Below are positions 32,389 to 49,109 of a DNA stretch of 64,000 nt, piece after piece (the stretch's first letter is position 1; each line of letters opens with the position of its first letter). Where the stretch lies: positions 434,001-498,000 of the forward strand of contig CAIJRD010000011.1 of assembly GCA_903822975.1 (NCBI GenBank), given 5' to 3'. The notes below the pieces were generated by a model. The model was given only the letters and a program-made list of their open reading frames with translations. It made no database searches and was not told the DNA's origin. Position numbers and translations under genes: made by a program. Source of the stretch: an uncultured Sinobacteraceae bacterium (GTDB lineage Bacteria; Pseudomonadota; Gammaproteobacteria; Nevskiales; Nevskiaceae).

Positions 32389-34569
32389 TCACGCCGCCGC
32401 GCCGCTCAGACGAAACCGCGCCACGATCTGCCGCAATTGCGATGCACGCTCGTTGAGCGATTGGCTCGAGGCAGCGACCTCTTCGACCAGCGCTGCATTC
32501 TGCTGGTTGACGTTTTCGAGCTGGCCGATCGACTCGCTGATCTGCTGCAGGCCGCGCGTCTGCTCGGCGATGGAATCGGCAGCATCCTTTGCAAGCGTTG
32601 CGATGTTGTCGCTCGAACGCGTGATCTCGGCGAGTTGACGCCCGGATTCGGCGATCAGCACGTTGCCCTTGCTGACGCATTCGATTTCGTCCGCAATCAA
32701 GGTGCGGATCTGCCGCGCCGAGTTGCCGGTGCTCTTCGAGAGGTTACGCACTTCGGTGGCCACCACCGCGAAGCCGCGGCCGTGCTCGCCGGCACGAGCG
32801 GCTTCTACAGCGGCATTCAACGACAGCAGGCTGGTCTGGAACGCGACCGAATCGATTACGCCGACGATCTCGCCGATGCTGCGGCTCGAAATCGTGATGG
32901 CCTGCATCGAGGCACCCGCCTGTGCGGCGACATCGGCACCCGCGCGCGCCGTGACCAAGGCCTTGCGCGTGATCTCGCTGGTCTGCCGACTATTTTCGGT
33001 GGCCGCAACGGCGCTGCTGAGCAGTTCGTCGATCGCCGAAGCACTCTTTTCCAATGCGGACGCCTGCTGCTCCGTGCGCTGCGACATATCGGAATTGCCA
33101 CGTGCGATCTCTTCGGCGCCGCCGCTCACATCGTCGGCGGCCGTGGCCACTTCAGTCAGCGCCTCGGCCAGGCTTTCCACGGCGGTATTCAGCGCTTCGG
33201 TCACATCCCGTAGCGATCCGGAAAAGCTGCCGTTGGCGCGGCGCGTGAGATCACCATTGCTGAGTGCGTTGGTGGTTGCGCTGATTTCGCCGATGGCCGT
33301 TTGCAGACTTTCCAATGAGAGATTGAAGCTGCGCTGCAGCTGACCCAGCGCGCCGGGCAGTTTGCCTTGAATGCGCGAGCTGAAGTCGCCGGCGGCGGCG
33401 GCATCCAGCCCCTTGCCGAGGTCCGCGAGTGCGGCTTGCAGCAACTGCATCGCGGTATCGACCTTGGTGCGCGCGGCACCGGCAACATCCTCGCTCATGC
33501 GAGCGCCGAAATTGCCGGCAACCAGCGCATCCATCACGGTATCCAGCGCCAGCATCGTGCGTTGCACGCTGTCCGCACCGGCGTTCACGCCCACTTTCAG
33601 CTGCGCGAGATCGCCGCGCAGCGACGCGGTAATCCGCGCCGTGAAATCTCCACGGGCCACCGCACCCAAAACCGAATTGGTTTCGCCGATCGCCGCATTC
33701 AAATCGGCCAGCAGCGCGTTGAACGCCCGGCACATGGTGGCAATCGCATCGCTGCCATCGCTGTCCACTCGAATGCTGAAATCACCTTGTGCAACTTCGC
33801 TGATCGCGCGATGCAGGCGCTCGATCGGCTGGCGGATCGCCTGGTCCACCAACACCGTGCCCGCCACCAACATCAATGCGGCGAACAGCGCGATCCCGAG
33901 CCCCACCGTCAACGCCGCCGCGTTGTGCTGCCGCGCGGTGGCAATGGCGGTAACAAAGGTCGACGAGCCTTCCGCGCTGAAGCCCTGCAAACCCTTGTGG
34001 ATGGCTTCGAACGCAGACATCTTGGCCTTCGAAATCTGCTGCAGCAGCTGCAAATCGTTGGAGCCGCTGATCTGTCCCTTCACCGCCGACGTGCTGGCTG
34101 CCACGTAGTCGTCCCATAGCTTGAGCAGATCTGCCACGCGTGCGACATAGCGCGGATCGGTTTTCGCGATGGCCGCCAGCGACTCGCGCAGGTGCGCGGC
34201 ATCCTTCTGGGCATCCTCCAGCTCGAACTCGTCTTTCTCACCCAGTGCTTGCGCAAACGAGCCCTGCAGATCGGCGAGGCCGACGTTGATCGTGGCGAGC
34301 TGCGTCATCACCGGCAGGGCGCGCGTCGAGAACTCGTTCAGGTTGTTGGTCGTCACGCGCGCCTGCGCCACGGTGTACAGGCAATAGAACACGAAGATCA
34401 GCAACGCGAGTGCGGGCAGCAGCAGCACCTTGTTGCGAATCGACAGATACCTCAGCGGTCGTGCCGCACGCGCAACGGCATTGCGGCCCCAGTGCTTCAC
34501 CGCACTCAGCCGCGGAGCGGATTTCAGGATTTGATGCGTATGTGTCAAAGCCGTCGCAGGTGTACTCAT
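32389..34569 (-). CDS. Transmembrane methyl-accepting chemotaxis protein with poly-HAMP array
   Basis: 726 aa from ATG 34569 (the frame reaches 34695). Membrane helices lie at about 48-68 and 219-241, enclosing a periplasmic helical sensor of about 150 residues. After TM2 come five HAMP-like units about 46 residues apart, each marked by GDF/GNF/GDL ([45 protein letters not shown]). The signalling hairpin follows, with the conserved tip [40 protein letters not shown]. It relays ligand occupancy to CheA/CheW. It is divergent from the first porin gene (248 bp gap). No CheR-docking pentapeptide at its end (RLSGAAA). Confidence 0.95.
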
Positions 34570-34817
34570 GAGGGTCAATCCGTCGATTAGGAGTCGATAG
34601 CGCAGACACGCGCCAAGTGGCACTCGCTGTAGCGGCGCCGATGTCTCTCGCTTAACCACCGTAAGTGGGCCCATCTGCACCGGCGAGCGGGCCATCGCCT
34701 ACACCCTCTGTTTTGTCTATGCAGCCACGCCGACTCCAGTCGCTAGAGACTCGAAAGCGCCGACCGTGCAAGGGATGTCGGTACCACAGAAACGACAAAA
34801 CATCAGAGGGATCTCTC

Positions 34818-35975
34818 GTGAGAAAATTGCTGCAAGGGCTGCTTTGCGCAGCCGCACTGTTGCCGCTGGGATCGGCCTATGCCGATCTGAGCAACATCCG
34901 TATCAACGGATTTGGACAGGTCGTTGGCGGTACAACCATGTCGAACGATCACGCCGCGCAAGGCTACGGTGCGGATCCGAAATTTGATCAGGAGTCGTTA
35001 TACGCCCTGCAGATTTCGGCGCCGCTCACCAGCAAGATGACGGCGACCGCGCAGCTGCTGGGTCGTGGCACCGAGGATTTCAAACCGAAGTTCGCATGGG
35101 CCTACCTTAAATACCAGATCAGCGATGACTGGTCAGTCAAACTCGGGCGCCAACGGATTCCCATCTTTTACTTTTCCGAAACGCTCGATGTTGGTGTTTC
35201 CTATCCTTGGCTGCGTCCGCCAACCGCCGTTTATGGCTTGGCAGCAGGCGTGACCAATTTCGACGCGATAACGGTCGGATATTCGCATCAGTGGGGAAAA
35301 CTTCGATTCGAACCGGTGCTGTCATACGGACGGTGGAAAGGCGGTATTAACTACGCCGGATCAGAGTCGACATTCACGGGCACGCAAATGGCCGTTATTT
35401 CGCTGACCACAACCTACGACGAATGGATTTCCCTTCATACCAATTACGCCACGTGGAAATCGAGTGTCACGGGTTCTCCCATGGACGGCCTGATCGCCGG
35501 GCTCAACTCGGCGGGCCTGGGTACGGCGGCCAACGATTTAGCGATAAACGGCGATACGCTCGGCATTATCGATCTCGGAGCGGAGATCAATTATGCAAAG
35601 TGGCAGGTCATTGCCGAATACGATGCCGCCCGATCATTCCACAATTTCATACCGCATTCACACGTTGGCTTTCTGACGGTTGGGCGCCACTTCGGCCGCT
35701 TCGAGCCACTGCTTACGTATGTACGATCGAACAATTCAAGTTCGTCACAGGCGTTGAATGAAATCCCGGACACGTCTGGCAATCAGCAGTTTCGCGCCAT
35801 CGTCGGCAGCATATTGAAGTCTCAGCGCACGCGTGAGAACTACTACATATTCGATCTTCGTTACGACCTCGCCAATAACGTTGCGCTCAAGTTCAGCTAT
35901 ACGGCGTTCAACTCATCGATCGCGGGCACCGCGAGCAGCAACCTGCTCTCGGCCGGCGTCGCCTACAGCTTCTGA
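34818..35975 (+). CDS. Outer-membrane porin-like protein, cassette copy 1
   Basis: 385 aa from GTG 34818, with GAGGG at 34806-34810; only this start yields the signal peptide (LLQGLLCAAALLPLGSAYA, cleavage before DLSNI). The mature protein is a beta-barrel with alternating strands, beginning IRINGFGQVVGGTT and GYGADPKFDQESLYALQISA. It ends in GVAYSF, a terminal Phe typical of BAM substrates. Conserved blocks include FKPKFAWAYLKYQ, RQRIPIFYFSETLDVGVSYPWLRPPTA and NNVALKFSYTAFNSS. It belongs with porin-like proteins of marine and soil gammaproteobacteria; substrate unknown. Paralogues start at 39095 and 40948. Its stop is 17 bp before the PstS-like gene. Confidence 0.85.
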   Translation: MRKLLQGLLCAAALLPLGSAYADLSNIRINGFGQVVGGTTMSNDHAAQGYGADPKFDQESLYALQISAPLTSKMTATAQLLGRGTEDFKPKFAWAYLKYQISDDWSVKLGRQRIPIFYFSETLDVGVSYPWLRPPTAVYGLAAGVTNFDAITVGYSHQWGKLRFEPVLSYGRWKGGINYAGSESTFTGTQMAVISLTTTYDEWISLHTNYATWKSSVTGSPMDGLIAGLNSAGLGTAANDLAINGDTLGIIDLGAEINYAKWQVIAEYDAARSFHNFIPHSHVGFLTVGRHFGRFEPLLTYVRSNNSSSSQALNEIPDTSGNQQFRAIVGSILKSQRTRENYYIFDLRYDLANNVALKFSYTAFNSSIAGTASSNLLSAGVAYSF

Positions 35976-35979
35976 GCAT
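35862..35979 (+). repeat. 118-bp block identical to 40142-40259
   Basis: The last part of porin copy 1, its stop and four further bases (GCAT after TGA) match copy 2 without a mismatch as far as can be read. Sequence on both sides diverges. Confidence 0.85.
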
Positions 35980-35992
35980 AAGGAGAACTCAC

Positions 35993-36397
35993 ATGAAACA
36001 ACTCATAGCATTTTCACTGTTCAGCCTGCTCATTGCTCAGGCCCATGCCGGCGCCATCGTCGCCGCCAAAGACTCGCCACTGGAGCCGATGGACGCTGAA
36101 CAGGTCAAAAAGATTTTCCTCGGCCACGAACCGCAGGCCGCTGGCCAGACGCTCGCCGTGCTGTATCAGAAGGACAGCCCGGTGCGGGCCGACTTCGAAA
36201 CCAAGGTGCTCGGCAAAACCGGCGCCGACCTGAGCGGCTATTGGTCGAAGCTGATCTTCACCGGCAAGGCACAGGCACCGGAAGAAGTTTCCGGCGATGC
36301 CGGCGTCAAGGCGAAGATCTCCGGCAGCCCGGCTGCAGTGGGCTACGTTTCCGATAGCGCTGTTGATGCCAACATGAAGCTGCTGTTCAAGTACTAG
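35993..36397 (+). CDS. Short PstS-like periplasmic binding protein, cassette copy 1
   Basis: 134 aa with AGGAGAA at 35980-35986. The signal peptide (MKQLIAFSLFSLLIAQAHA) is followed by a mature protein of 115 aa that resembles one lobe of phosphate ABC transporter substrate-binding proteins: MDAEQVKKIFLGHEPQ, TLAVLYQKDSPVRADFETKVLGKTGADLSGYWSKLIFTGKAQAPEEV, SGSPAAVGYVSDSAVD. Full PstS proteins are more than twice as long and have two lobes, so ligand binding may differ. No pst permease or ATPase genes are nearby, which argues against classical import. Mature copies 1 and 2 differ at only three residues. Confidence 0.85.
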   Translation: MKQLIAFSLFSLLIAQAHAGAIVAAKDSPLEPMDAEQVKKIFLGHEPQAAGQTLAVLYQKDSPVRADFETKVLGKTGADLSGYWSKLIFTGKAQAPEEVSGDAGVKAKISGSPAAVGYVSDSAVDANMKLLFKY

Positions 36398-36425
36398 TAC
36401 TCCTCGCAAGTACTAGTACCTTTCG
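36388..36425 (+). repeat. 19-bp tandem duplication of the gene's 3' end
   Basis: Two copies of a 19-bp unit (CAAGTACTAGTAC followed by six variable/conserved bases). The first contains the last codons and TAG stop of the PstS-like gene; the second follows directly. Confidence 0.85.
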
Positions 36426-36822
36426 CAAGCACTCAGGTCGCCGCGAGCGACTCCGCTCGCTCAAGGCCGCGCATCCACTTTGGGTGCGCGGCCTTTTTCT
36501 ATTTGGAGCCACCGGCAGTGGCCGCCCCGTTGGCGGACCGATTAAGTGGCGATAGTGAGAAGGCAAGGATTTACTGCGAGATGCACGCGCTGGCATGCAG
36601 GGATACATGCCTCAATTTGAGACACGTCACAGTGAGCGCGTGTTGGGGGGAGACTGCCGCGGTGCCTTGAGAGCATCGGCAGGTGACGCAAAGCCCGACT
36701 GCTGCCAACTCGCGTTACGGCAGCTTATTAAACGAAGAATCGAATCGGCTTACGTCAACAATCGGGCACTGCCCGGCTGTGGCGCATTCCTCATTGCAGC
36801 ATCATCCACAGTTGGAGAAGTC
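36398..36822 (+). other. Gap between cassette 1 and hydrolase gene
   Basis: Holds the 3'-end repeat and terminator listed separately. The rest (about 36500-36822) is probably the hydrolase promoter region; the hydrolase frame is open back to 36595 but lacks a signal peptide unless started at 36823. No other gene seen. Confidence 0.5.
36443..36498 (+). terminator. Two-hairpin terminator cassette after PstS-like copy 1
   Basis: Hairpin 1 is GCGAGCG/CGCTCGC (36443-36449 with 36454-36460). It is followed by an intrinsic terminator whose stem GGCCGCGCATCC pairs with GGTGCGCGGCC (36465-36493), then a T-run. The same two-part arrangement recurs at 40703-40761. Confidence 0.85.
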
Positions 36823-38634
36823 ATGACATCGAAAACGTCCGCCGCGCGACGCGGCTTGACCGCGGTCGCAGCGATCCTGCTCGCCGCAACATCCGGCACC
36901 GCCTTGGCGCTAAGTCTGCCGATCAATCCTCCCGTAGGTACGCGTGTGGAAACGCCGGTCGCCAACCTGGCCAACACGCCGAACGTGGTCGAAACACTCG
37001 TCTCGCTGTACAAGCCGCTGCCGATGTCGGCCGGCGTACACCCGAGCGCGTGCGACTGGAATTCCTACGTGCGCTACCGCGACGTCAACGGTCCCGCGAA
37101 ATCGGCTAAGGCCGACGCGGTATTCGCCACGCAATCCGGCTTCGGCGGCGGCCCTTCGGAAGTGGACATTCTCGCGCGCAACCTGGTGATGAGCTCCGCT
37201 GCGGCGGGCAAGCATGTTGAAACCTGGGTACACGTGCATCGCTGGAACTGTCTGATCGATCGCACCGGTCTCGACACCGCCGCGGCAGCGAAGGACTACC
37301 ACATTGCCGTCGACTATTACTTCAATCGCAAGTCGATCAACGGCAAGACCTACCAGCCGGTGAACTGGGCGCAGCAGCACTTCCTCGCCAACTACAGCCT
37401 CGACCAGTTCATGAACGACTGGTACGACATCATGGTGCAAGCGATCCCCGATCCAGCCGCACGCCAGAAGAAGATCTTCTGCGGCGGACATTCCTATGGC
37501 AGCGTCGTCACCAGCGTCTTCGCCGCCTGGGGCTTTGGTAGCGATCCGACCAATCCAATCAATGCCGGCTACAACCAGTGCGCCGCCTTCTGGGGTGTCG
37601 ACGCGATCGAAACCTCCGATGTCGCCGGCCTTGCCAGGAAGCCGGTGCTCGGCAAAGTGGTGGGTGGACTCGCCGATGCGATCCAGACCACGGTGGCTGA
37701 TCTCACCGGCAAGACCAATCTGTTCCCGACGATTGCGGTGGGCGAAGTGCCGGTGTTCTACGGCCTGGAGATCATTGCCATGGCTGCCTTCCTGGAGCCG
37801 ACGCACGAATCCGACTTGCTGAAAATTCTTCCCTCGCAGAATGCAATTCTCGGTGCATTCATGCGGCTCAGCCTGGCGCGCACGTATCAACAGGTCCTCA
37901 CCAACGCGCCGGACTATCGCAGCTTCCGCTACACCAATGAAGCACTGCTCGGCGCGATGTTCGACAACAACTCCAACTTCATCGGCGCCGATGCGCTCGG
38001 TCTCGGCACGCTGGGCGGCGGACCGCTGGGCCCGAAGAACTTCATTGTTCCGCCGGCACTCGACGGCCTGGAAAGTATTCCCATCCTCGGTCCGTTCGTC
38101 GGCAGCCTCGTGGGTGGCGAGTTCACCACGGTTGGCCCCACCGATCCCAACGCGCTGTACACCTGGAACGACTACAAGACCACACCCAGCACGTATCCGG
38201 ATGGCACGGCTTACACCAAGTCCGAATACAAGATGACCGACATCCACCAGTGGGCACGCACGCTGTTCGAAGGTCCGGGTGCGTGGATCGAAGCCTACTA
38301 TCCGCTCAACCTCCTCGTCGGCCTGGGCGCGAGCCTCGCAGAGTCGGGCAGACCGAGCATGCTCGACAAGCACCTGCTGTTTCCGCAGGGTATCGCCACT
38401 AAGCCGCGCTTCCAGGCGTTCGGCACTTCGGGCATTGTCTACACCGCGCTCAATCTGTTCGACGTCTTGCTTCCCGTGATCGGCGCACCGCCGCTGAAGG
38501 TGCCCAACACGGTGGAGATTCCCTGGTACTCGCACTTCGATATGTCGACGGGCGCGTACATCCAGAACAACGGTCAGATTGATCCCGCCAGCCGTGCGGT
38601 GCGCGATTACATGATCCAGCGCATCGGCAGCTAA
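36823..38634 (+). CDS. Secreted alpha/beta-hydrolase, large lipase/esterase-like protein
   Basis: 603 aa from ATG 36823, with TTGGAGAA at 36812-36819. Signal peptide: RRGLTAVAAILLAATSGTALA. The catalytic nucleophile is the Ser of CGGHSYGS, in the context of a strand followed by GHSYG and a helix (VVTSVFAAWGFGS). WYSHFDMSTGAY near the C-terminus is a candidate for the catalytic His. The protein is much longer than compact lipases, with large inserted helical regions. It lies between porin/PstS-like cassettes 1 and 2 on the same strand, with terminators on both sides, so it is probably its own transcription unit. Substrate unknown. Confidence 0.8.
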   Translation: MTSKTSAARRGLTAVAAILLAATSGTALALSLPINPPVGTRVETPVANLANTPNVVETLVSLYKPLPMSAGVHPSACDWNSYVRYRDVNGPAKSAKADAVFATQSGFGGGPSEVDILARNLVMSSAAAGKHVETWVHVHRWNCLIDRTGLDTAAAAKDYHIAVDYYFNRKSINGKTYQPVNWAQQHFLANYSLDQFMNDWYDIMVQAIPDPAARQKKIFCGGHSYGSVVTSVFAAWGFGSDPTNPINAGYNQCAAFWGVDAIETSDVAGLARKPVLGKVVGGLADAIQTTVADLTGKTNLFPTIAVGEVPVFYGLEIIAMAAFLEPTHESDLLKILPSQNAILGAFMRLSLARTYQQVLTNAPDYRSFRYTNEALLGAMFDNNSNFIGADALGLGTLGGGPLGPKNFIVPPALDGLESIPILGPFVGSLVGGEFTTVGPTDPNALYTWNDYKTTPSTYPDGTAYTKSEYKMTDIHQWARTLFEGPGAWIEAYYPLNLLVGLGASLAESGRPSMLDKHLLFPQGIATKPRFQAFGTSGIVYTALNLFDVLLPVIGAPPLKVPNTVEIPWYSHFDMSTGAYIQNNGQIDPASRAVRDYMIQRIGS

Positions 38635-38871
38635 CTCGATCATTCGAAACCCTCGTGCCGGCTAAGCCACAGCGCTTAGCCGGTGCGAACTCGACCGACA
38701 AGGCACTCTGATCAAGCACAGTTCGACGTCTGCAAACGAGAGTGACGACGCCAAAAGCGGGCCACGATCCGAAGAAGACACATCGATGTTCGATACGTTT
38801 TCGATAGCGAGACGGAACTGAACGTCAGGTAGCAGTTTACGTAGAAACCGCGAGCCCATTGGCTTGCAAAA

Positions 38872-38909
38872 GGCCGCACATCAACTTTTGATGCGCGGCT
38901 TTTTTTTTT
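38872..38909 (+). terminator. Intrinsic terminator after hydrolase gene
   Basis: The stem GGCCGCACATCAA pairs imperfectly with TTGATGCGCGGC, followed by a run of T. It is close in sequence to the terminators after PstS-like copies 1 and 2. It lies about 240 bp after the hydrolase stop. Confidence 0.8.
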
Positions 38910-38976
38910 GCGCGGACGACTTCCTCGCACGCGACACGCCGGACGGCGCGTAGTTCTACCGCCGACCGCATCAATT

Positions 38977-39005
38977 AGCCCCGCCGGGCTGGCACGGTCC
39001 TTAGA
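38977..39005 (+). promoter_or_regulatory. Conserved box upstream of porin copy 2 (inverted repeat plus TGGCAC-N5-TTAG)
   Basis: The inverted repeat AGCCC-N4-GGGCT (38977-38990) overlaps TGGCAC-N5-TTAG (38990-39004). The latter resembles a sigma-54 promoter (TGGCAC-N5-TTGC), but the -12 GC is replaced by AG. The same composite occurs before copy 3 at the same distance to the start codon. Regulatory role inferred. Confidence 0.45.
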
Positions 39006-39094
39006 AGCTCGCCGCAGCGCCGCTAGTAGTCAGGCACCGACCGCAAGGTCGTTCACTCCCGAACAACTACACCTAGAACTCCTCGGAGAACTCA

Positions 39095-40255
39095 ATGCGA
39101 ACGCTATTCGCGCGGCTTTTGATCTGCGCACCACTATTCCTGTTGCTGTCGCCAGCCTATGCCGATCTGAGCAACATCCGCATTAACGGATTTGGACAAG
39201 TCGTTGGCGCTACAACGCTATCGAACGACCACTCCGAGCAAGGCTATGGTGCGGATCCGAAGTTCGATCAGGAATCGCTTTACGCATTGCAGATCAGCGC
39301 CCCGCTCACCAGCAAGATGACGGCGACGGCACAGTTGGTCGGCCGCGGCAGCGAGGACTTCAAGCCGAAGTTCGCCTGGGCCTATGTCAATTACCAGTTC
39401 GACGACAATTGGTCCGTCAAGGCCGGGCAACAGCGGATTCCAACGTTCTACTTCTCGGAAACCCTGGATGTCGGCGTGTCCTATCCCTGGCTGCGACCGC
39501 CAACGGCGATCTACGGCCTGGCCTCTGGTGTGAGTAATTTCGACGCGATTACGGTCAGCTATTCAAATCAGTGGGGCAAGCTTCGCATCGAACCGCAGGC
39601 CTCCTACGGCCAGTGGTCGGGCCCGGTCAACTTCGGCGGCAATACCGTCCATCTCACCGATACGCAGTTCACCGTGCTTTCGATGACCGCGACGTACGAT
39701 GATTGGGTGACGTTCCGCACGAACTATCTGTCGTGGAAAGCCTCACTCACCGGCACACCACTCGACGGCCTGGTCGCTGGACTCAACAGTGCCGGGTTGA
39801 ACACTGCGGCAAATGATCTTGCGATCAACAACGATACGTTTTCCGTCATTGAGGTCGGAACGGAGATCAACTACGCGAAATGGCAGGTCATCGCGGAATA
39901 CGATTACGCACGTACGTTTCACAGTTTCTACCCGCAATCCCACGTTGGCTATATCGCCATTGGCCGCCACTTCGGCCGCTTCGAGCCGATGTTTACCTAC
40001 GTACGGTCTAACAACTCCAGCCCCGGCCAGCCAATCAACGACATTCCGAACACACCGGACAATCAACAGTTCCGTGCAATCGTTGGCGGCTTGATCAAGT
40101 CGCAAACGACGGCTGAGAACTACTACATGTTCGATTTGCGCTACGACCTCGCCAATAACGTTGCGCTCAAGTTCAGCTATACGGCGTTCAACTCATCGAT
40201 CGCGGGCACCGCGAGCAGCAACCTGCTCTCGGCCGGCGTCGCCTACAGCTTCTGA
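39095..40255 (+). CDS. Outer-membrane porin-like protein, cassette copy 2
   Basis: 386 aa from ATG 39095 with CGGAGA upstream. Signal peptide: RTLFARLLICAPLFLLLSPAYA. The mature part is closely related to copy 1: IRINGFGQVVGATT, FDQESLYALQISAPLTSKMTATAQL, QQRIPTFYFSETLDVGVSYPWLRPPTA and the C-terminal GVAYSF. The last about 38 codons are identical at DNA level to copy 1, while the middle has diverged (for example NFGGNTVHLTDTQ), consistent with recombination between copies. It is followed 17 bp later by PstS-like copy 2. Confidence 0.85.
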   Translation: MRTLFARLLICAPLFLLLSPAYADLSNIRINGFGQVVGATTLSNDHSEQGYGADPKFDQESLYALQISAPLTSKMTATAQLVGRGSEDFKPKFAWAYVNYQFDDNWSVKAGQQRIPTFYFSETLDVGVSYPWLRPPTAIYGLASGVSNFDAITVSYSNQWGKLRIEPQASYGQWSGPVNFGGNTVHLTDTQFTVLSMTATYDDWVTFRTNYLSWKASLTGTPLDGLVAGLNSAGLNTAANDLAINNDTFSVIEVGTEINYAKWQVIAEYDYARTFHSFYPQSHVGYIAIGRHFGRFEPMFTYVRSNNSSPGQPINDIPNTPDNQQFRAIVGGLIKSQTTAENYYMFDLRYDLANNVALKFSYTAFNSSIAGTASSNLLSAGVAYSF

Positions 40256-40259
40256 GCAT
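40142..40259 (+). repeat. 118-bp block identical to 35862-35979
   Basis: Second copy of the porin 3'-end block. The final 31 or so bases, through the stop, are also shared with porin copy 3. Confidence 0.85.
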
Positions 40260-40272
40260 CTGGAGAACTCCT

Positions 40273-40677
40273 ATGAAACACCTCATTGCAATCGCTTTGT
40301 TTGGCCTCGTTACTGCGCAGGTCCACGCTGGCGCCATCGTCGCCGCCAAAGACTCGCCACTGGAGCCGATGGACGCTGAACAGGTCAAAAAGATTTTCCT
40401 CGGCCACGAACCGCAGGCCGGTGGGCAGACGCTCGCCGTGCTGTATCAGAAAGACAGCCCGGTGCGCGCCGACTTCGAAACCAAAGTACTCGGCAAAACC
40501 GGCGCAGACCTGAGCGGCTATTGGTCGAAGCTGATCTTCACCGGCAAGGCACAGGCACCGGAAGAAGTTTCCGGCGATGCAGGCGTCAAGGCGAAGATCT
40601 CCGGCAGCCCGGCTGCAGTGGGCTACGTTTCGGATAGCGCGGTTGATCCGAACTTGAAGCTGCTGTTCAAGTACTAG
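40273..40677 (+). CDS. Short PstS-like periplasmic binding protein, cassette copy 2
   Basis: 134 aa with TGGAGAA upstream. The signal peptide (MKHLIAIALFGLVTAQVHA) differs from copy 1 at seven of 19 residues, while the mature part differs at only three (Gly for Ala after HEPQA, Pro for Ala and Leu for Met near the C-terminus). It has the same half-length PstS-like pattern as copy 1: KKIFLGHEPQ, VLGKTGADLSGYWSKLIFTGK, AAVGYVSDSAVD. The contrast between signal and mature part points to gene conversion. Likely secreted to the periplasm. Confidence 0.85.
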   Translation: MKHLIAIALFGLVTAQVHAGAIVAAKDSPLEPMDAEQVKKIFLGHEPQAGGQTLAVLYQKDSPVRADFETKVLGKTGADLSGYWSKLIFTGKAQAPEEVSGDAGVKAKISGSPAAVGYVSDSAVDPNLKLLFKY

Positions 40678-40702
40678 AAGCATGCGAGAGTAAGAACGAA
40701 CC

Positions 40703-40761
40703 GCGAGCGATTCCGCTCGCCAAAAGGCCGCACATCCGCTTTGGATGCGCGGCCTTTTTTT
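40703..40761 (+). terminator. Two-hairpin terminator cassette after PstS-like copy 2
   Basis: GCGAGCG/CGCTCGC (40703-40709 with 40714-40720), then the stem GGCCGCACATCC with GGATGCGCGGCC (40726-40754) and seven T. It matches the arrangement after copy 1. Confidence 0.88.
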
Positions 40762-40831
40762 ATCGAACACTCGTCCGCGTTTACCGGACACGCTCCAACG
40801 TCGCGAGTTTCACCGTCGACGCCAATGATCT

Positions 40832-40858
40832 GCCCCGTTGGGCTGGCACTACAGTTAG
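40832..40858 (+). promoter_or_regulatory. Conserved box upstream of porin copy 3 (inverted repeat plus TGGCAC-N5-TTAG)
   Basis: GCCC-N4-GGGC (40832-40843) is followed by TGGCAC-N5-TTAG (40844-40858). The distance from the TTAG to the start codon is the same as for copy 2. It is a possible atypical sigma-54 element or an activator site; no equivalent was recognised before copy 1. Confidence 0.45.
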
Positions 40859-40947
40859 TTTCCGGCACAACTGCCGTTAGCACCCAGGTGCCGGTCGCGA
40901 GTTCGATCGGACCCGCACAAGAACCAAACAAAACCTGGGAGCACACA

Positions 40948-42108
40948 ATGAGAGTCCCCTTTTCGCGGTCACTGATTTGCGCATCGCTGATGCTGACGCT
41001 CGCGCCCGCACACGCCGATCTCAGCAACATTCGGATCAATGGCTTTGGACAGGTCGTCGGCGGCACGACCTTTTCGAACGATCACCCGTCGCAAGGTTAC
41101 GGCGCCGACCCGAAGTTCGACCAAGAGTCCTTGTACGCGCTGCAGATCAGCGCACCGCTCGCCAGCAAGCTCACAGCAACGGCGCAGCTGGTGGGCAAGG
41201 GAACGGAAGACTTCAAACCGAAGTTCGAATGGGCCTACGTCAACTACCAGTTCAACAACGATTGGTCTATAAAAGCAGGCCGCCAGCGCGTGCCGTTTTT
41301 CAGTTACTCGGACACACTCGAAGTCGGCGTGTCCTTGCCATGGCTGCGCACACCCACCAGCGTATACGACGTAACCGGAGGTTTCGGCAACGCGGACGCG
41401 GTTTCGCTGAGTTATTCGCACGCTTTCGGAAATTGGCAAATCGACCCGGAACTTCTGTTCGGCCAATACTCTGGAGGCATAAAGGCGGAGGGTATTGATG
41501 GCTCGCTCGAGCTCAAAAATTTGGCTGGGCTTGCGCTACATGCCGGATACAGTGACTGGCTTTCGCTGCGCGCTGCCTACTTCGTGACTCGATTCGGATT
41601 CCATTCACCGGATTTCGATGGCCTGGTAGGAGCACTCGACCAATCCGGATTTCAGGGCGCTGGCGATGAACTCGCTACGAATGGCGATACCACCACGTTT
41701 CTTGGGTTTGGAGCGGAGATCAACTATGCGCACTGGCAGGTGATCAGCGAATACGTCGAGTTCCGCGCCAACCACAGTTTTATCGGAGACGACCACGCCT
41801 ACTACCTGGCCATAGGACGTCACTTTGGCCGCTTCCTGCCGATGTTTACATTCGGCCGCGCGAACGCCTCATCGCGTTGCACTGCCTTGAGCCAGATTCC
41901 CGACGTACCTCAGACGCAGCCGTTGAGAGAAGCGGTATCGACCGTGATCGCAGCTCAAGTTATCCACGATAGCTACTACCAGTTCGATTTGCGCTATGAC
42001 CTTTCGAACAACGTTGCGCTGAAATTTAACTACACAGGGACTGCATCCTCGGTTGCGTCGAGGCCGAGCAGCAATCTCCTGTCGGCCGGCGTCGCCTACA
42101 GCTTCTGA
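40948..42108 (+). CDS. Outer-membrane porin-like protein, cassette copy 3
   Basis: 386 aa from ATG 40948 with TGGGA upstream; the frame is open to 40741. Signal peptide: RSLICASLMLTLAPAHA. The N-terminal third matches copies 1 and 2 (DLSNIRINGFGQVVGGTT, GYGADPKFDQESLYALQISAPL). The middle is clearly diverged: EVGVSLPWLRTPTSVYDVTGG and an AEGIDGSLELKNLAG segment, so pore loops and specificity may differ. It retains the GVAYSF end. It is the most diverged member of the three and is followed 18 bp later by PstS-like copy 3. Confidence 0.85.
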   Translation: MRVPFSRSLICASLMLTLAPAHADLSNIRINGFGQVVGGTTFSNDHPSQGYGADPKFDQESLYALQISAPLASKLTATAQLVGKGTEDFKPKFEWAYVNYQFNNDWSIKAGRQRVPFFSYSDTLEVGVSLPWLRTPTSVYDVTGGFGNADAVSLSYSHAFGNWQIDPELLFGQYSGGIKAEGIDGSLELKNLAGLALHAGYSDWLSLRAAYFVTRFGFHSPDFDGLVGALDQSGFQGAGDELATNGDTTTFLGFGAEINYAHWQVISEYVEFRANHSFIGDDHAYYLAIGRHFGRFLPMFTFGRANASSRCTALSQIPDVPQTQPLREAVSTVIAAQVIHDSYYQFDLRYDLSNNVALKFNYTGTASSVASRPSSNLLSAGVAYSF

Positions 42109-42126
42109 GCATCAGGAGAAAACATC

Positions 42127-42531
42127 ATGAAACAGATTCTCATTGCTGCTGCGCTCAGCCTGATGGCAACGCAGTCGTTCGCCGGTGCGATCGTTGTCGG
42201 CAAGGACTCACCGATTGCGGCGATCGACGCCGAAGAGGCGAAGAAGATTTTTCTCGGCCACGAACCGCAGATGGGTGGCCAGACGCTCGCCGTGCTGTAT
42301 CAGAAAGACAGCGCCACACGTACAGACTTCGAAACCAAGGTGCTCGGCAAAACCGGTGCGGACCTCAGCGGCTATTGGGCCAAGCTGGTATTCACCGGCA
42401 AAGCTCAGGCACCAGAGGAAGTCTCGGGCGATGCCGGCGTCAAGGCAAAAGTGGCCGGCAGTCCAAGTGCGATCGGCTATGTCTCCGACGCCGGCATCGA
42501 TGCCTCGGTGAAGCTTGTGCTCAAGTATTGA
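42127..42531 (+). CDS. Short PstS-like periplasmic binding protein, cassette copy 3
   Basis: 134 aa with AGGAGAA upstream. Signal peptide: MKQILIAAALSLMATQSFA. The central block KKIFLGHEPQ, GGQTLAVLYQKDS, FETKVLGKTGADLSGYW and FTGKAQAPEEVSGDAGVKAK is shared with copies 1 and 2. The ends differ (VVGKDSPIAAIDAEEA; SAIGYVSDAGIDASVKLVLKY). It lacks the two-hairpin terminator seen after the other copies, so transcription may continue towards the downstream chemoreceptor. Confidence 0.85.
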   Translation: MKQILIAAALSLMATQSFAGAIVVGKDSPIAAIDAEEAKKIFLGHEPQMGGQTLAVLYQKDSATRTDFETKVLGKTGADLSGYWAKLVFTGKAQAPEEVSGDAGVKAKVAGSPSAIGYVSDAGIDASVKLVLKY

Positions 42532-43135: not shown

Positions 43136-45031
43136 ATGAGATTTCTAGATCGCTTTCGTTCCGCCAGGCATTCGCAGATGCAGGTGATCACGGATGCTTT
43201 GAACAACGTGACCTCCAACGTCATGATCGCCGACAACGATCGCCGCATCACGTATATGAACAAGTCCGTCATCGAAATGATGACCACGGCAGAAGCCGAT
43301 ATCCGTAGGGACCTGCCGAATTTCGACGTCAAGAAATTGATGGGCGGCAGCATCGATAGCTTCCACAAGAATCCTTTGCACCAGATGGCAATGCTCAGTG
43401 CATTGAAGAAGACACATCGGACGGAAATCAAGGTCGGTGGCCGCACGTTTGGTTTGATCGCCAGCCCGATCACCTCCAGCACCGGAAAGCGCCTTGGCAC
43501 GGTAGTCGAATGGAAGGATCGCAGTGCGGAGGTTCGCCTGGAAACCGAGCTGGCTTCGCATCAGCAGAAGCTGCAAACGATTGCGATCGAGAATCTGCGG
43601 ATTCGCAATGCGCTGGATGTGGGCAACACCAGCACAATGATTGCAGACAACGATCTGCGTATCGTTTATATAAACGAGGCTGTTCAAAAACTGCTGACCG
43701 AAGCCGAGAGCGATATCCGCAAGGATCTGCCAGGTTTTTCGGTAGCCAATCTGCTCGGCTCCAGCATCGACCAGTTCCACGTCAATCCCCAGCATCAACG
43801 CGAGATGCTGGCGCGGCTGACGCAGACGCATCGCGCCAAGATCAAGGTCGGTGGCAGAGACTTCATCCTCACCCTGACGCCGATCGTCGACCATGCGGGC
43901 GTGCGCGCCGGCACCGTGGTCGAGTGGATCGATCGCACCGCCGAATTCAAATCCGAGCAGGAGATCTCCGATGTTGTCGAACGTGCCGGAACGGGCGACT
44001 TCACACCGCGCATCGAGACGACCGGCAAGACGGGCTTCTTCAAGGTAATGGCCGATGGCATCAATCTCTTGATGGAAACGCTGGTCACCATCGTCGACCA
44101 GGTCAAGGATTCGTCTCTGCGCATCAACGGCGCAGCTGGCGACATCGCCGCCGGCAATATCGACCTGGCTTCGCGCACCGAACAGCAGGCAGCGAGTCTG
44201 GAGGAAACCGCAAGCTCGATGGAACAGCTCACCAGTGCGGTCCGCAACAACTCCGAGAGCGCACGGCAAGCCAGCCAGCTCGCGCGCGGCGCGGCCGAGG
44301 TGGCATCGAAAGGCGGGGCCGCAGTCGGCGAGGTAGTGACGGTGATGGGAGCGATCAACGCCTCGTCAAAGAAGATCGTCGACATCATCAGTGTGATCGA
44401 TGGCATCGCTTTCCAGACCAACATTCTCGCGCTGAATGCGGCGGTTGAAGCGGCACGCGCCGGCGAGCAGGGTCGCGGCTTCGCAGTGGTGGCAGCGGAA
44501 GTGCGCAGCCTGGCGCAGCGCTCGGCGAGTGCCGCCAAAGAGATCAAGACGCTGATTGGCGATTCTGTGGAAAAGGTATCCACCGGTTCGCAGTTGGTCG
44601 CACTAGCGGGCGAGACCATGGGCGAGATCGTCGGCAGCGTGAAGCGCGTAACCGACATCATCAACGAGATCAGTGCGGCATCCGATGAACAAAGTCGCGG
44701 CATCGAGCAGGTCAATTCCGCGATCACGCAACTCGACGAAGTCACGCAGAAGAATTCATCGCTGGTGGAAGCCGGCACCACGTCCGCCCGTGCACTTGAA
44801 TCGCAGTCCAGTGAAATGATGCAAGCGGTGGCTCGCTTCAGAACAGGTACGCTCGCCGCGGCGGCTTCCGTGGTGGTGCCGATCAAGCCCAGCGAACGGC
44901 CAGGCGAACGGCCAAGCGAGAAGGCGGCGCGCACGACGACACCGTCGGCGCCGATGAAGCGCAAGGCGTCGGCCACCAAGATGGCCAGCGCTGCACCGTC
45001 TCGCAGCGGCGAGAATTGGTCCGAGTTCTGA
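43136..45031 (+). CDS. Soluble double-PAS methyl-accepting chemotaxis protein with CheR-docking tail
   Basis: 631 aa from ATG 43136, with CGGAG upstream. No membrane segment. Two related PAS domains lie at about 15-130 and 150-265 ([45 protein letters not shown]). A HAMP-like linker ([13 protein letters not shown]) and a full signalling domain follow, with tip [40 protein letters not shown]. The C-terminus is NWSEF, matching the NWETF-type pentapeptide that tethers CheR/CheB in high-abundance receptors. It therefore looks like a cytoplasmic receptor sensing an internal signal such as redox or energy state; no cofactor residue could be assigned. It follows the third porin cassette and precedes cheV/cheA/cheW. 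Confidence 0.95.
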
Positions 45032-45567: not shown

Positions 45568-46506
45568 TCAGGCCGCGTGCGCGGCCGCTGCTTGTTCCAA
45601 TCCCTGCAGACATTCGATCACGCAGCCGGCGAGTTCGTCGGCGCTGAACTTTGGAACGAAGCGATTCGCGGCGACTTTGGCCACCATCGCCTGGTTGAAC
45701 ACGCCGGACAGCGAGGTGTGCAGCAGCACATAGAGTCCGCGCAGCCGCACGTCGCGACGGATTTCCGTGGTCAGGGTGTAGCCGTCCATGCGCGGCATCT
45801 CGATATCCGAGATGACCATCAAAAGCTCCTGTTCGATCGGCCCGCGTTGCGCCAGATCCTGCAGGTACTGCAGGGCTTCGAGTCCATCGTTGACCATCAC
45901 GCAGTCGACCCCGATCTGTTTGAGCGTGCGCTCAATCTGGTTGAGCGCGACGCGCGAATCGTCCACCACCAGAATGCGACGACCGACCGACAGCCGCGTT
46001 GCCTGACCCACCAGACGTTCGGACAGATCCGGCGCGTCGCCAATGACTTCGGCGAGCACTTTTTCGACGTCGACGATTTCGATCAGCTCGTCGCCATGAC
46101 GCGTGATTGCGGTGAGGTAACTATTGCTGGCATTGCCCGGCGGACTTTCGACCGCGGCGACATCGACATGCAGAATGCGATCGACCCCATGTACCAGGAA
46201 GCCCTGCACCCGGCGGTTGTACTCGGTGATGATGACGCGCGTCGCCGGCCCTTCGCTCGGCTCGCCGAGTGCGGCCGCCAGATCGATCACAGGGACGATG
46301 CTGCCGCGCAGGTCTGCCACGCCACGCACCAGCGGATGCGCGCTCGGCGTCGTCACCAGCGGCGGGCTCGGAATCACTTCCTGCACCTTGAACACGTTGA
46401 TGCCGAAGATTCGGCCCGAATTCAGCCGGAACAACAGCAGCGCGAGCCGGTTGTGGCCGGCCAGTTGAGTATTGCGGTCGATGCGTTCCAGCAGTCCGGC
46501 GACCAT
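45568..46506 (-). CDS. cheV: Chemotaxis coupling protein CheV (CheW-REC)
   Basis: 312 aa from ATG 46506 with AGGAG upstream. The N-terminal CheW-like domain (about 15-165) reads FRLNSGRIFGINVFKVQEVI, VRGVADLRGSIVPVIDLAAAL and HGDELIEIVDVEKVL. It is fused to a receiver domain (about 175-310): RRILVVDDSRVALNQI, phospho-acceptor Asp in VISDIEMPRMDGYTL, and the conserved Thr and Lys in LLHTSLSG and FVPKFSADEL. It couples receptors to CheA and can act as a phosphate sink. It is divergent from cheA across a 190-bp promoter region. Confidence 0.95.
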   Translation of the reverse strand: MVAGLLERIDRNTQLAGHNRLALLLFRLNSGRIFGINVFKVQEVIPSPPLVTTPSAHPLVRGVADLRGSIVPVIDLAAALGEPSEGPATRVIITEYNRRVQGFLVHGVDRILHVDVAAVESPPGNASNSYLTAITRHGDELIEIVDVEKVLAEVIGDAPDLSERLVGQATRLSVGRRILVVDDSRVALNQIERTLKQIGVDCVMVNDGLEALQYLQDLAQRGPIEQELLMVISDIEMPRMDGYTLTTEIRRDVRLRGLYVLLHTSLSGVFNQAMVAKVAANRFVPKFSADELAGCVIECLQGLEQAAAAHAA

Positions 46507-46696: not shown

Positions 46697-48520
46697 ATGG
46701 CGATAGACACCGAAGACGAGATTCGCGCCGACTTCCTCGCTGAAGCCGGCGACCTCGTCGAGCGCCTCGGCGAACAGCTGATGCAGCTGGAGCAGAACCC
46801 CGAAGACCGCGAACTGCTGAACGCGGTGTTCCGCGGCTTCCATACGATCAAGGGCGGCGCCGGCTTCCTCGCGCTGACGCCGATGGTGACCTTGTGCCAC
46901 GTCGCCGAAGACATCTTCAACGCCCTGCGTAGCGGCGCACTGGCGATCGTGCCTTCGCTGATGGATGCAGTGCTGGAAGCGCTCGAGTTGCTGCAAACGA
47001 TGTTGCGCGCCACGGGCGCACGCAAGCCCCTGCCCGAGGTGCCCGAAGCCTTGCTGCAGCGCCTGCATCTGGCGGCGCGCGCGAGCGACGTCGGCGCGCC
47101 AGCCGTGCTGGCCGCACCTGCGCTCACGCCAACCGCATCGGCCCACGTCGCCGCCGTGCCCAATACCAACACCATCAGCGACGACGAGTTTGAAGCCCTG
47201 CTCGATCAGTACCAGGGCGCTGCTCCTGCGGCAGTCGCTGCGCCGAGCGCGACTGAGGCCGAGCCTGAGACCGTCGTCGATGCAGCGCCGTCAACGGCAC
47301 GGGCACCGACCAAGCAGCCGGGCGAGCACGCCGCAGTGCCTTCGCAGAACACACCGGAACAGGTCACCCGCGTCGATACCGCCGTGCTCGACGATCTGAT
47401 GAATCTGGTCGGCGAACTGGTGTTGACGCGCAACCGCCTGCTGACGCTGTGCACACGCGGCAGCCAGGAGCCGCACGCCCGCATGATCGGCGAGCTGGAC
47501 CACATCACGCGCGGCCTGCAGGTGATGGTGATGCGCGCGCGCATGCAGCCGATCCGGCGCGTGTTCGCACGCTTCCCGCGGCTGGCGCGCGACATTGCAC
47601 GCGGACTCGGCAAGCAGGTGGAAGTTGAACTGGCCGGTGAAGAAACCGGGCTCGACAAGAACCTGGTCGAAGCACTCGCCGATCCGCTGCTGCACATGGT
47701 GCGCAATAGCGTCGACCACGGCATCGAAGCACCCGAAGTGCGCCGCGCGGCCGGCAAGCCGGCGACCGGCCATCTGCGACTGGCCGCGCAGCAGACCGGT
47801 GATCACATCTTGATTACGGTGTCCGACGATGGCGCCGGCATCGACCCAGAACGCCTGCGTCGCAAGGCGATCGAAAAGGGTCTGCTCGATGCCACCGACA
47901 CCAGCCGCATGTCGGCCAGCGAATGCCTGCAACTGGTGTTCTTGCCGGGGCTCTCGACGCGCGAGCAGGTGAGCGATCTATCCGGTCGTGGCGTCGGCAT
48001 GGATGTGGTGAAGTCCTCGATCACCGCACTCGGCGGCACCGTGCAGATCGAATCGCGCATCGGTGCCGGCACGCAGATTTTGATTCGCGTGCCGCTGACG
48101 CTGGCGATCATGCCGGCCTTGATGGTGGAAGTGGGTCCGCGCACGGTGGCGATGCCGCTGACCGCCGTGCTCGACGTGCTGGTACTCGACCCGACGCGCC
48201 AGCGCCGTCTGGATCGCTGGGATGTGCTGCTCTATGGCGACGCGATGCTGCGGCTGATCGATCTGCACCGCTGGATGGAAACCGCAGCAATCGACCCCGC
48301 GCGTCGGCACGTCGTCGTCGCCAGCGTCGGCGCCGAGCGCTACGGCTTCGTCCTCAGCGCCGTGCACGGGCGGCAGGAAGTCGTCGTCAAACCATTCGGC
48401 GCGCTGCTGCGCGGCCTGCCCGGCCTGTCTGGCGCCACCATCACCGGCGACGGTCGCGTCGCGCTGATTCTGGATCTCGCCGGCATCGTCGATGTCGTGC
48501 TCGGCCGCGCGGGAGACTGA
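46697..48520 (+). CDS. cheA: Chemotaxis histidine kinase CheA
   Basis: 607 aa. The HPt domain carries His49 in FRGFHTIKGGAGF. A long Ala/Pro/Thr linker (about 125-225) replaces a recognisable P2 response-regulator-binding domain. The dimerisation domain is LDDLMNLVGELVLTRNRLL. The ATPase has the N box (LLHMVRNSVDHGIE), G1 (VSDDGAGID) and G2 (SGRGVGMDVVK). The C-terminal CheW-like P5 domain (PALMVEVGPRTVAMPLTAVLDVL) follows. Complete kinase, slightly short for the family because P2 is not evident. cheW follows on the same strand. Confidence 0.96.
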   Translation: MAIDTEDEIRADFLAEAGDLVERLGEQLMQLEQNPEDRELLNAVFRGFHTIKGGAGFLALTPMVTLCHVAEDIFNALRSGALAIVPSLMDAVLEALELLQTMLRATGARKPLPEVPEALLQRLHLAARASDVGAPAVLAAPALTPTASAHVAAVPNTNTISDDEFEALLDQYQGAAPAAVAAPSATEAEPETVVDAAPSTARAPTKQPGEHAAVPSQNTPEQVTRVDTAVLDDLMNLVGELVLTRNRLLTLCTRGSQEPHARMIGELDHITRGLQVMVMRARMQPIRRVFARFPRLARDIARGLGKQVEVELAGEETGLDKNLVEALADPLLHMVRNSVDHGIEAPEVRRAAGKPATGHLRLAAQQTGDHILITVSDDGAGIDPERLRRKAIEKGLLDATDTSRMSASECLQLVFLPGLSTREQVSDLSGRGVGMDVVKSSITALGGTVQIESRIGAGTQILIRVPLTLAIMPALMVEVGPRTVAMPLTAVLDVLVLDPTRQRRLDRWDVLLYGDAMLRLIDLHRWMETAAIDPARRHVVVASVGAERYGFVLSAVHGRQEVVVKPFGALLRGLPGLSGATITGDGRVALILDLAGIVDVVLGRAGD

Positions 48521-48584
48521 GGCTTGCCATGTCAATTCCTATCCGGGCTTCTCATCTTGCGAGACCACTGCGGTCAGCGCCTGC

Positions 48585-49109
48585 ATGTCGGATGTGCCGG
48601 CCGGCTGCAACTCCGAGCAGCCTGCAATGCTGAATCTCTCCGCCAATCCCGCGATGAGTGCTAAGGACAAGGCTGCCGGCGGAGGCTGGGTCGGCTTTGA
48701 ACTGGCCGGCCAGCGCTACGCGCTCGACATCCTCTGCGTGCAGGAAGTGCTGACCAAGGTTGCGATCGAAGCGGTGCCCGGTGCGCCGTCGGCCGTGCTC
48801 GGCGTGATCAATCTGCGCGGCCGCATCGTCAGCGTGGTCGACCTGCGCCAATGCCTCGGCTTGCCGCCCGGCGAAGACACGCCACAAAGCCACATCGTGA
48901 TCGCCGATATCGGCGACGAATTGATGGGCTTGCGCGTCGACGGCATCGCCAAAGCCTGCGTAATCGTCGGCTCCGAAATCAAATCCGTGCCGGCCACCCG
49001 TGGCCGCATCCCGGACCCCTTGGTGCTCGGCATGGTCGGCACCGGCGATCATCTCCTGACGCTACTGAATACGCAGCAGCTGGCGCTGGTCGCCGCCGCT
49101 TTGATGTAA
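48585..49109 (+). CDS. cheW: Chemotaxis coupling protein CheW
   Basis: About 174 aa if ATG 48585 is used. The frame is open back to 48492 inside cheA, and ATGs at 48627 and 48654 are also possible; none has a strong ribosome binding site. The CheW fold is clear: WVGFELAGQRYALDILCVQEVL, VPGAPSAVLGVINLRGRIVSVVDLRQCLGL, IGDELMGLRVDGIAKACVI and MVGTGDHLLTLLNTQQL. It bridges receptors and CheA. No cheY, cheB, cheR or cheZ is in the window. Confidence 0.93.
   Translation: MSDVPAGCNSEQPAMLNLSANPAMSAKDKAAGGGWVGFELAGQRYALDILCVQEVLTKVAIEAVPGAPSAVLGVINLRGRIVSVVDLRQCLGLPPGEDTPQSHIVIADIGDELMGLRVDGIAKACVIVGSEIKSVPATRGRIPDPLVLGMVGTGDHLLTLLNTQQLALVAAALM

Follow-up and report, generated by a model that had tools for sequence, protein, structure and literature searches.

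The window, the 64,000-nucleotide stretch of DNA from an uncultured Sinobacteraceae bacterium that was analysed here, contains three tandem cassettes, each made up of a porin gene and a gene for a 134-amino-acid relative of one half of PstS (half-PBP), located between two chemoreceptor (MCP) genes and the chemotaxis genes cheV, cheA and cheW:

32389-34695, minus strand: transmembrane MCP with HAMP repeats (PF00015, PF00672, PF18947; two predicted transmembrane helices), candidate receptor of the module
33850-34428, minus strand: periplasmic ectodomain and two transmembrane helices of this MCP, family A6 (clustering with PBP-linked MCP ectodomains; alignment A6)
34818-35975, plus strand: porin (OMP) 1, putative GTG start; 74% identity to porin 2
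35993-36397, plus strand: half-PBP 1, 134 aa long, with PstS domain II behind a signal-like N terminus
36463-36495, plus strand: hairpin resembling a terminator downstream of cassette 1, with a 15-pair stem and a T-rich tail (terminator scan)
36823-38634, plus strand: secreted putative hydrolase, probably outside the module
38870-38909, plus strand: hairpin of similar form with a T run, in the gap separating the hydrolase from cassette 2 (by-eye comparison)
39095-40255, plus strand: porin (OMP) 2, the modelled copy (pLDDT 93.6)
40273-40677, plus strand: half-PBP 2, 93% identical to copy 1
40724-40760, plus strand: hairpin with a T run, again similar, behind cassette 2 (read by eye)
40948-42108, plus strand: porin (OMP) 3, related to porin 1, with a weak Porin_O_P match under the cut-off
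42127-42531, plus strand: half-PBP 3, the modelled copy (pLDDT 91.3), PstS domain II
43136-45031, plus strand: soluble double-PAS MCP (PF00015 and PAS; no transmembrane helix predicted), probably a member of the che cluster
45568-46506, minus strand: cheV (PF01584 and PF00072)
46697-48520, plus strand: cheA (NCBIfam CheA models, under their cut-offs)
about 48585-49109, plus strand: cheW, start uncertain (CheW model, under its cut-off)

Every gene named for this arrangement in the original prediction is present, and the absence of an ABC gene that it reported was borne out when the listed open reading frame translations from 28 to 54 kb were read by eye. Both receptors exceed the MCPsignal cut-off of 34.6 bits, with 119.1 bits for 32389-34695 and 190.6 bits for 43136-45031. 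The porin and half-PBP genes of the three cassettes, all on the plus strand, are separated by 17, 17 and 18 bp. A genome search located three half-PBP copies, all in the window, and six MCPs, two of which flank the cassettes. Identity to copy 1 is 93% and 72% for half-PBPs 2 and 3, and 74% and 53% for porins 2 and 3. The terminator scan returned fewer terminator-like sites than in shuffled sequence, and the cassette 1 hairpin rests on its long stem. Within the window, the element GGCTGGCAC-N5-TTAG is confined to the sequences preceding porins 2 and 3; sigma-54 promoters usually carry GC at -12, and this element was rejected as a sigma-54 promoter for want of it.

The porin 2 model has 16 strands, counted from the model's list, and a C-terminal phenylalanine is found in 182 of 191 OMPs of the family, so that the 16-stranded barrel and C-terminal aromatic residue by which Gram-negative porins are recognised are both found. 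The top structural matches of the model were the phosphate porins OprO (Z 26.1) and OprP (Z 25.9), a likeness qualified by 11% identity and by a nearly equal match to the general porin PorB (Z 24.8). Porin 3 scored 17.7 against the Porin_O_P (PF07396) cut-off of 20.9 and porins 1 and 2 gave no match, with matches at E<=0.01 in 7/60 members of the OMP family. A conserved L3 motif was rejected as a signature of the porin family, as its regular expression occurs in 32/191 OMPs.

The small protein corresponds to a single lobe of the PstS fold, domain II, and lacks the phosphate-binding loop. The model of half-PBP 3 has the PstS domain II fold, with its best structural match (Z 14.7) to residues 102-218 of chain 1twy_F over 105 aligned residues at an rmsd of 1.8. 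A phosphate loop of the RxDGSGT type, taken as any [GS]SG[TS], was found in just 2/199 half-PBPs, and phosphate was rejected as a classical ligand on this count; the genome's own full-length PstS carries RSDGSGT. Public annotation calls such proteins "phosphate ABC transporter substrate-binding protein", and a role as a phosphate importer subunit would account for the PstS fold and for the weak matches of the window copies to PF12849 (14.7-19 bits against a cut-off of 27, covering only positions 95-190 of 267) and TIGR02136 (21.5-24.8 bits against 206.6). A PstB model match was also found within 5 kb at 15/186 loci, in a model that can catch other ABC ATPases. We nevertheless regard an importer subunit as very unlikely, given a single lobe, the loop in 2/199 and 186 loci at which no half-PBP has a PstC or PstA model match within 5 kb; the sole PstC/PstA matches fall in the pst operon of the genome itself, which lies on a different contig. 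This agrees with the expectation that receptors, and not a phosphate permease, would accompany the porin/half-PstS unit.

A half-PBP is present in 100 of 370 sampled Gammaproteobacteria genomes, and its pairing with a porin is constant. A porin-type OMP was found within 3 kb at all 80 loci of the class sample, which drew one locus per genome from 80 of the 100 positive genomes and left out the window's own genome, one genome of the family set, matches near contig ends and matches ranking below those listed. All 189 measurable pairs (of 199 half-PBPs) are co-oriented, with a median gap of 17 bp, and the porin and half-PstS thus hold up as a unit. Models for OMP, sensor and PBP were derived from the sequences of this analysis and not from Pfam, set A3 omits two half-PBPs (L033, a fragment, and L049, a near-duplicate of L048), and counts use stop-to-stop open reading frames because one gene caller misframed some high-GC loci. 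Half-PBP matches on plasmids comprised 21 records; the four examined all have a chemoreceptor or chemotaxis gene by the pair (L220, MCP-porin-PBP; L219, porin-PBP with a facing MCP; L222, porin-PBP with a divergent MCP; L221, chemotaxis protein/OMP/PBP/EAL). Lysobacter relatives have an isolated pair, flanked by accA-like and tilS-like genes (named by eye). Nothing in the viral library matched at E<=0.001, and in the open-licence PMC literature no title or abstract opening was found that describes a porin/half-PBP module.

A sensor protein lies within 3 kb of the half-PBP at 60/80 class-sample loci, against 13% expected from flanking density, and MCP density near half-PBPs is 25-fold above the flanks, with the caveat that the loci share ancestry, so that the computed association probabilities overstate their independence. 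The sensor is an MCP at 22 of these 60 loci and a GGDEF/EAL protein or histidine kinase at the other 38. Scored by output, the 80 loci are nearly exclusive: 26 GGDEF-EAL, 20 MCP, 10 histidine kinase, 4 mixed and 20 with none. The proposed tie between the pair and chemotaxis therefore stands in part: sensors are common nearby, and a role in chemotaxis only does not fit an MCP within 3 kb at 22/80 loci. Taken literally, the pair occurs mostly away from chemotaxis genes, the outcome that the original prediction had set against itself; pairs lie mostly near other sensors, which changes the sensory reading and does not remove it. The pair might instead capture nutrients, as a porin with a periplasmic protein that speeds diffusion, and the sensors might only regulate it or be co-inherited. 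Sensor-less pairs are indeed common (20/80 class-sample loci and 41/80 loci of a second, named set, in which histidine kinases and GGDEF proteins are not enriched, at ratios of 0.6 and 0.8), and divergent histidine kinase and response-regulator genes could control transcription of the pair. Such a role would not explain MCP and GGDEF/EAL outputs, which lack direct control of transcription, nor would it predict a receptor ectodomain specific to these loci, and we judge it improbable.

An ectodomain of this kind was found. Among 145 sensors near half-PBPs, 117 had a transmembrane pair and hence an ectodomain, including 52 of 58 MCPs; 50 of these 52 MCP ectodomains, that of the window's transmembrane receptor included, fall into family A6, against 0/26 unlinked control MCPs, in a first clustering that cut the linked ectodomains with narrower transmembrane spacing than the controls. 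With one uniform cutting rule for both groups, 50/54 linked MCPs and no controls joined the family, and without any cutting 51/58 linked MCPs matched the A6 profile. The other seven comprise two short fragments, the window's soluble MCP and four MCPs whose N-terminal parts are of other kinds (dCache_1 in one, L216). Controls came from 36 MCPs (the genome's own six and 30 drawn from the 66 matches of three other genomes), of which three proved to be linked and seven had no transmembrane pair; 14 of the remaining 26 are as short as A6 members. Among these 36 MCPs from four genomes, only the three by half-PBPs match the profile. In the reverse direction, the 370 genomes gave 41 ectodomain matches at E<=1e-20, 32 of them no more than 4 kb from a listed half-PBP; the proportion is 33/52 when weak matches are included and 17/26 when genomes supplying A6 rows are removed, with the same caveat of shared ancestry. 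Nine of the 41 have no listed half-PBP nearby; one of these is beside a family OMP and some are at contig ends. The A6 ectodomain also occurs on two hybrid histidine kinases and one GGDEF protein beside porin/half-PBP pairs. The kinase-type ectodomain family is less specific, with five control MCP ectodomains joining at E<1e-4 and none at 1e-6. The window's transmembrane MCP, proposed earlier as the receptor, accordingly has an ectodomain typical of porin/half-PBP loci, and such an ectodomain combined with gene linkage of receptor and half-PBP would be expected of an SBP-stimulated receptor system.

The outer parts of the neighbourhood fared differently. The original prediction had included the secreted hydrolase, the soluble PAS receptor and the cheV-cheA-cheW neighbourhood. 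The hydrolase matched neither Pfam nor NCBIfam and owes its name to by-eye recognition of a GHSYG motif and a signal-like N terminus; no homologue was found in other half-PBP loci, and among 60 other relatives only one (G009) has homologues, on contigs other than those of its cassettes. It is thus probably not part of the module, and its candidacy as the ligand source was rejected on the same two grounds. Locus L219 does carry, immediately upstream of the porin, a gene annotated as an alpha/beta hydrolase, and L085 a hydrolase-like open reading frame beside its PBP (by eye), neither of them a homologue of the window's; because they are unrelated to it, some hydrolase may still have a general role at such loci. 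The soluble PAS MCP does not match the A6 ectodomain, and a strong homologue lies inside the che cluster of a relative (L277), which points to its probable membership of the che cluster rather than the module. The proximity of che genes is a local trait: in G009 the cassettes have none next to them. The whole locus could in principle be a local accident, a tandem duplication that happens to adjoin che genes, to which the 93% identity of half-PBPs 1 and 2, the similar hairpins behind both and the G009 cassettes would all be suited. We give this almost no credence, as sensor association recurs across the class, an ortholog of the HAMP-repeat MCP (E 4e-265) accompanies two cassettes in G009, and in Pseudoxanthomonas, too, related MCPs stay by cassettes.

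NspS-MbaA and YfiBNR likewise place a c-di-GMP enzyme of the membrane under the control of a periplasmic protein; those systems involve other protein families and are not known to include a porin of this type. Stimulation by SBPs is reported for chemoreceptors, sensor kinases and diguanylate cyclases/phosphodiesterases (PMC9602780); in that text the word "porin" occurs 0 times, and no half-length SBP appears in the available passages. A close likeness is to Pseudomonas aeruginosa, where full-length PstS, with a phosphate affinity of 7 nM and common to the ABC importer, is reported to stimulate the MCP CtpL, whose ectodomain does not itself bind ligand (PMC4926252). Both cases bring a periplasmic PstS-fold protein together with an MCP ectodomain, an interaction known there and predicted here, where the protein is a single lobe without the loop, has its own porin and has no phosphate permease nearby.

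In total, the computed results are the pairing, the predicted fold, a phosphate loop that has been lost, an enrichment of sensors nearby and an ectodomain common to several outputs, and together they make it reasonably probable, in our view, that OMP, half-PBP and receptor ectodomain form a sensory module with a swappable output, of which chemotaxis is one option. Each cassette encodes a dedicated porin, predicted to be 16-stranded, along with a secreted PstS relative of one lobe; together these would be one half of a trans-envelope module whose other half would be an inner-membrane receptor. The half-PBP most likely acts as a periplasmic relay that binds a solute entering through, or occupying, its porin; once loaded, it would dock on the receptor ectodomain and, presumably in this direction, drive the output domain, which may be that of an MCP, a hybrid or ordinary histidine kinase, or a GGDEF/EAL protein. 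Here the receptor would be the divergently encoded HAMP-repeat MCP, so that the output would be chemotaxis, and three cassettes might provide a wider solute range or a higher dose. More tentatively, the one-lobe PBP could be completed only by docking on a matching ectodomain that supplies the missing surface; equally speculative is the detail that the porin hands on the solute or its occupancy state, with outputs swapped and cassettes varying the input. RcsF with OMPs, and YfiR in YfiBNR, are precedents for envelope-surveillance adaptors, and the half-PBP could be one of these, sensing the assembly, occupancy or damage of its porin by contact and reporting to the receptor. A single lobe allows no clam-shell closure, the phosphate loop is gone and the porin is the most constant partner (80/80), all consistent with an adaptor; several divergent porins per locus and MCP outputs would fit solute sensing better, and we consider surveillance rather unlikely.

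The sensory module remains the preferred reading. As the half-PBP travels with varied sensors, its "phosphate transport" label more likely denotes a part of a signalling relay, and in about a quarter of the sampled Gammaproteobacteria genomes a "phosphate-transport" gene is probably part of a sensory module. If so, porin choice, chemotaxis, phosphorelays and c-di-GMP would be linked through one periplasmic adaptor family, which would offer a handle on receptors with unknown ligands and make the outer-membrane channel, as the front end of a receptor, a testable proposition.

In the window, three cassettes, each a porin and a secreted 134-aa protein, had been predicted between two chemoreceptors (MCPs) followed by cheV-cheA-cheW, and this gene layout was found in full:

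32389-34695, transmembrane HAMP-repeat MCP on one flank of the three pairs, divergent from the cassettes
34818-42531, three porin/134-aa pairs, all co-oriented, with within-pair gaps of 17, 17 and 18 bp
43136-45031, soluble double-PAS MCP on the other flank of the three pairs
after the soluble MCP, cheV, cheA and cheW, in this order

The 134-aa proteins (half-PBPs) have 72-93% identity to copy 1, and a search of the whole 4.46-Mb assembly found only these three. The MCPs found in the genome number six, including the two on either side of the cassettes. The same cassettes are present in the same-genus genome G009. Another contig of the genome (locus L057) carries an apparent complete pstS-pstC-pstA-pstB set, recognized from a PF12849 match, two permease-type matches and gene order, with pstB assigned by eye; the half-PBPs are therefore not substitutes for an absent PstS. 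A second long PstS-like protein of this genome (L058:9253-10755, 500 aa) adjoins a very large open frame, with 3012 codons inside the stretch.

The AlphaFold model of the half-PBP (pLDDT 91.3, 70-row alignment) has the predicted fold of PstS domain II, matching residues 102-218 of 1twy_F (Z 14.7, rmsd 1.8, 105 aligned) and residues 77-208 of PstS in the E. coli PstSCAB structure 9k3x (Z 11.0). The window copies fall below both the Pfam and NCBIfam cut-offs for PstS, and TIGR02136 gives a match at E<=0.01 for 53 of 70 proteins in the family (best 1e-11). The phosphate-binding loop, RSDGSGT in the genome's own full PstS, is absent from the half-PBPs, with even a loose version in just 2 of 199; at the stretch equivalent by hand alignment the family prefers P-[VI]-[DN]-Q, plus a downstream Arg. 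The family is a real one by its conserved residues: W84 is present in 100%, and F68, F89, G91, P96, G117 and Y118 in more than 90% each. One 581-aa open frame (L215:7191-8933, + strand) joins an apparent DnaJ-type domain and TM segment to a half-PBP and adjoins a porin, and similarly long open frames are matched in G400:C31 and G332:C244.

The porin model (pLDDT 93.6, 60 rows), with 16 strands counted from the listed elements, matched OprO (Z 26.1) and OprP (25.9) best, and the nearby score of PorB (24.8) means that OprP-like specificity is not established. Among 60 members, Pfam matches at E<=0.01 were to Porin_4 (25), OMP_b-brl (7) and Porin_O_P (7), and 182 of 191 porins end in F.

A profile built from 26 half-PBPs was run against 370 Gammaproteobacteria-class genomes and detected the family in 100. 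Neighborhoods were examined in 80 of these (one locus each; the class sample), at 25 relatives' loci and at 80 loci from named genomes, the best 80 of 587 confirmed. Porin and half-PBP lay on the same strand in all 189 measurable pairs, out of 199 half-PBPs. Within 3 kb of the half-PBP, all 80 class-sample loci had the porin and 60 had a sensor (MCP 22, GGDEF 28, EAL 23, histidine kinase 14), with 13% of such intervals expected to hold one from the sensor density more than 4.5 kb away; MCPs were 25-fold and GGDEF proteins 7-fold denser than in the flanks, and output types were seldom mixed inside one locus. A sensor adjoined the pair at 24 of 25 relatives' loci. In the best 80 of 587 named loci the counts were 79 for the porin, 39 for any sensor and 29 for MCPs (5.6-fold), with no enrichment of kinases or GGDEF proteins. 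On plasmids, 4 of 4 records examined, of 21 with a match (P. aeruginosa, two Pseudoalteromonas, one Caballeronia), had a gene for a receptor or for c-di-GMP signaling only a few genes away. No PstC or PstA match lay near the half-PBP in any of 186 loci; in 15 there was a match within 5 kb to the PstB model, which is less specific.

Receptor ectodomains, taken as the segment that two predicted TM helices enclose, were grouped by phmmer (E<1e-6). One family holds 50 of 52 half-PBP-linked MCPs, including the window MCP at 32389-34695. Its other members are two hybrid kinases (L100, L125) and a GGDEF protein (L213), each adjoining a porin/half-PBP pair. The 26 ectodomains of unlinked MCPs, from this genome and three others, all fall outside it, and no linked MCP matched a control at E<1e-4. 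A single cutting rule for both groups placed 50 of 54 linked MCPs, and no control, in the family. Uncut, 51 of 58 linked MCPs match the ectodomain profile, many being themselves in it. Seven do not: two are fragments, four have N-terminal parts of another kind (dCache_1 in one), and the last is the soluble MCP of the window. The profile matches just three of 36 uncut MCPs of four genomes, all beside half-PBPs. Pfam scans of five proteins with this ectodomain (the window MCP, three further MCPs and a hybrid kinase) gave no match inside it. A second family is common to 21 GGDEF/EAL proteins and 9 hybrid kinases, and a third to 15 kinases and 1 GGDEF/EAL protein, with five control MCPs joining the third at E<1e-4 and none at 1e-6; one GGDEF/EAL protein scanned (L141) matched dCache_3.

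With the MCP-type ectodomain as query, 370 genomes gave 41 matches at E<=1e-20; for 32 of them a listed half-PBP is no more than 4 kb away (33 of 52 with weak matches added). With row-supplying genomes excluded, 17 of 26 matches, in 22 genomes, were near a half-PBP (chance about 0.4%), with rows from other named genomes still in the profile and related genomes among those searched not independent. The surroundings of twelve matches without a listed half-PBP were fetched (nine at E<=1e-20), and none has a half-PBP in the fetched stretch; one adjoins a family porin, some lie at contig ends and some are truly solitary. At L263:7621-9891 (+), this ectodomain and a CheA-type kinase share a single frame. 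Its neighbors are a CheY-like gene and an ORF resembling a soluble MCP, with no half-PBP match within the stretch.

A cheA match occurs in 27 other genomes; in the six relatives fetched from among them, the ortholog lies inside a flagellar cluster with apparent flhA-flhF-flhG-fliA-cheY-cheZ and motCD (names read by eye, except CheA, CheW and CheV). The corresponding cluster here (L275) lacks cheA, and cheA and cheW adjoin the cassettes instead (46697-49109); judged against these relatives, they seem to have been relocated. In G009, the cassettes and MCP share a contig without a cheA match. The conserved cassette neighbor is thus the MCP, not the che core, which is a local feature. In the same-genus genome G001, a cheV-like gene (L055:11960-13183), which matches the window CheV at E 8e-133 and precedes apparent flagellar rod genes, is close to a porin/half-PBP/hybrid-kinase locus.

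Among 60 other relatives, only G009 has homologs of the window hydrolase; they lie on contigs C194 and C159, whereas its cassettes are on C191. The other loci have none. An annotated alpha/beta hydrolase on a Pseudoalteromonas plasmid (L219:3558-4559), just upstream of a porin/half-PBP/MCP locus, is unrelated to it by phmmer. Hairpins that resemble one another stand behind cassette 1, between the hydrolase and cassette 2, and behind cassette 2, a pattern that duplication of cassettes together with their terminators would produce, in a scan that overall gave fewer terminator-like sites than its shuffles. The element GGCTGGCAC-N5-TTAG occurs upstream of porins 2 and 3 (38987-39004 and 40841-40858), and none was found upstream of porin 1.

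What the computation itself gives is the pairing, the predicted fold, the loss of the loop, the enrichment of sensors and the shared ectodomain. They are probably, in our moderately confident judgment, best read as a porin/half-PBP/receptor module with swappable output, against which stand the many pairs without a nearby sensor. Receptors stimulated by solute-binding proteins (SBPs) are an established kind of system (PMC9602780), PstS-CtpL being one example (PMC4926252). The open-access papers searched yielded no description of an SBP that has a single lobe and its own porin, and this combination is apparently a new variation on these known systems. By analogy with them, the half-PBP would capture a ligand, dock on the receptor and pass the signal on.
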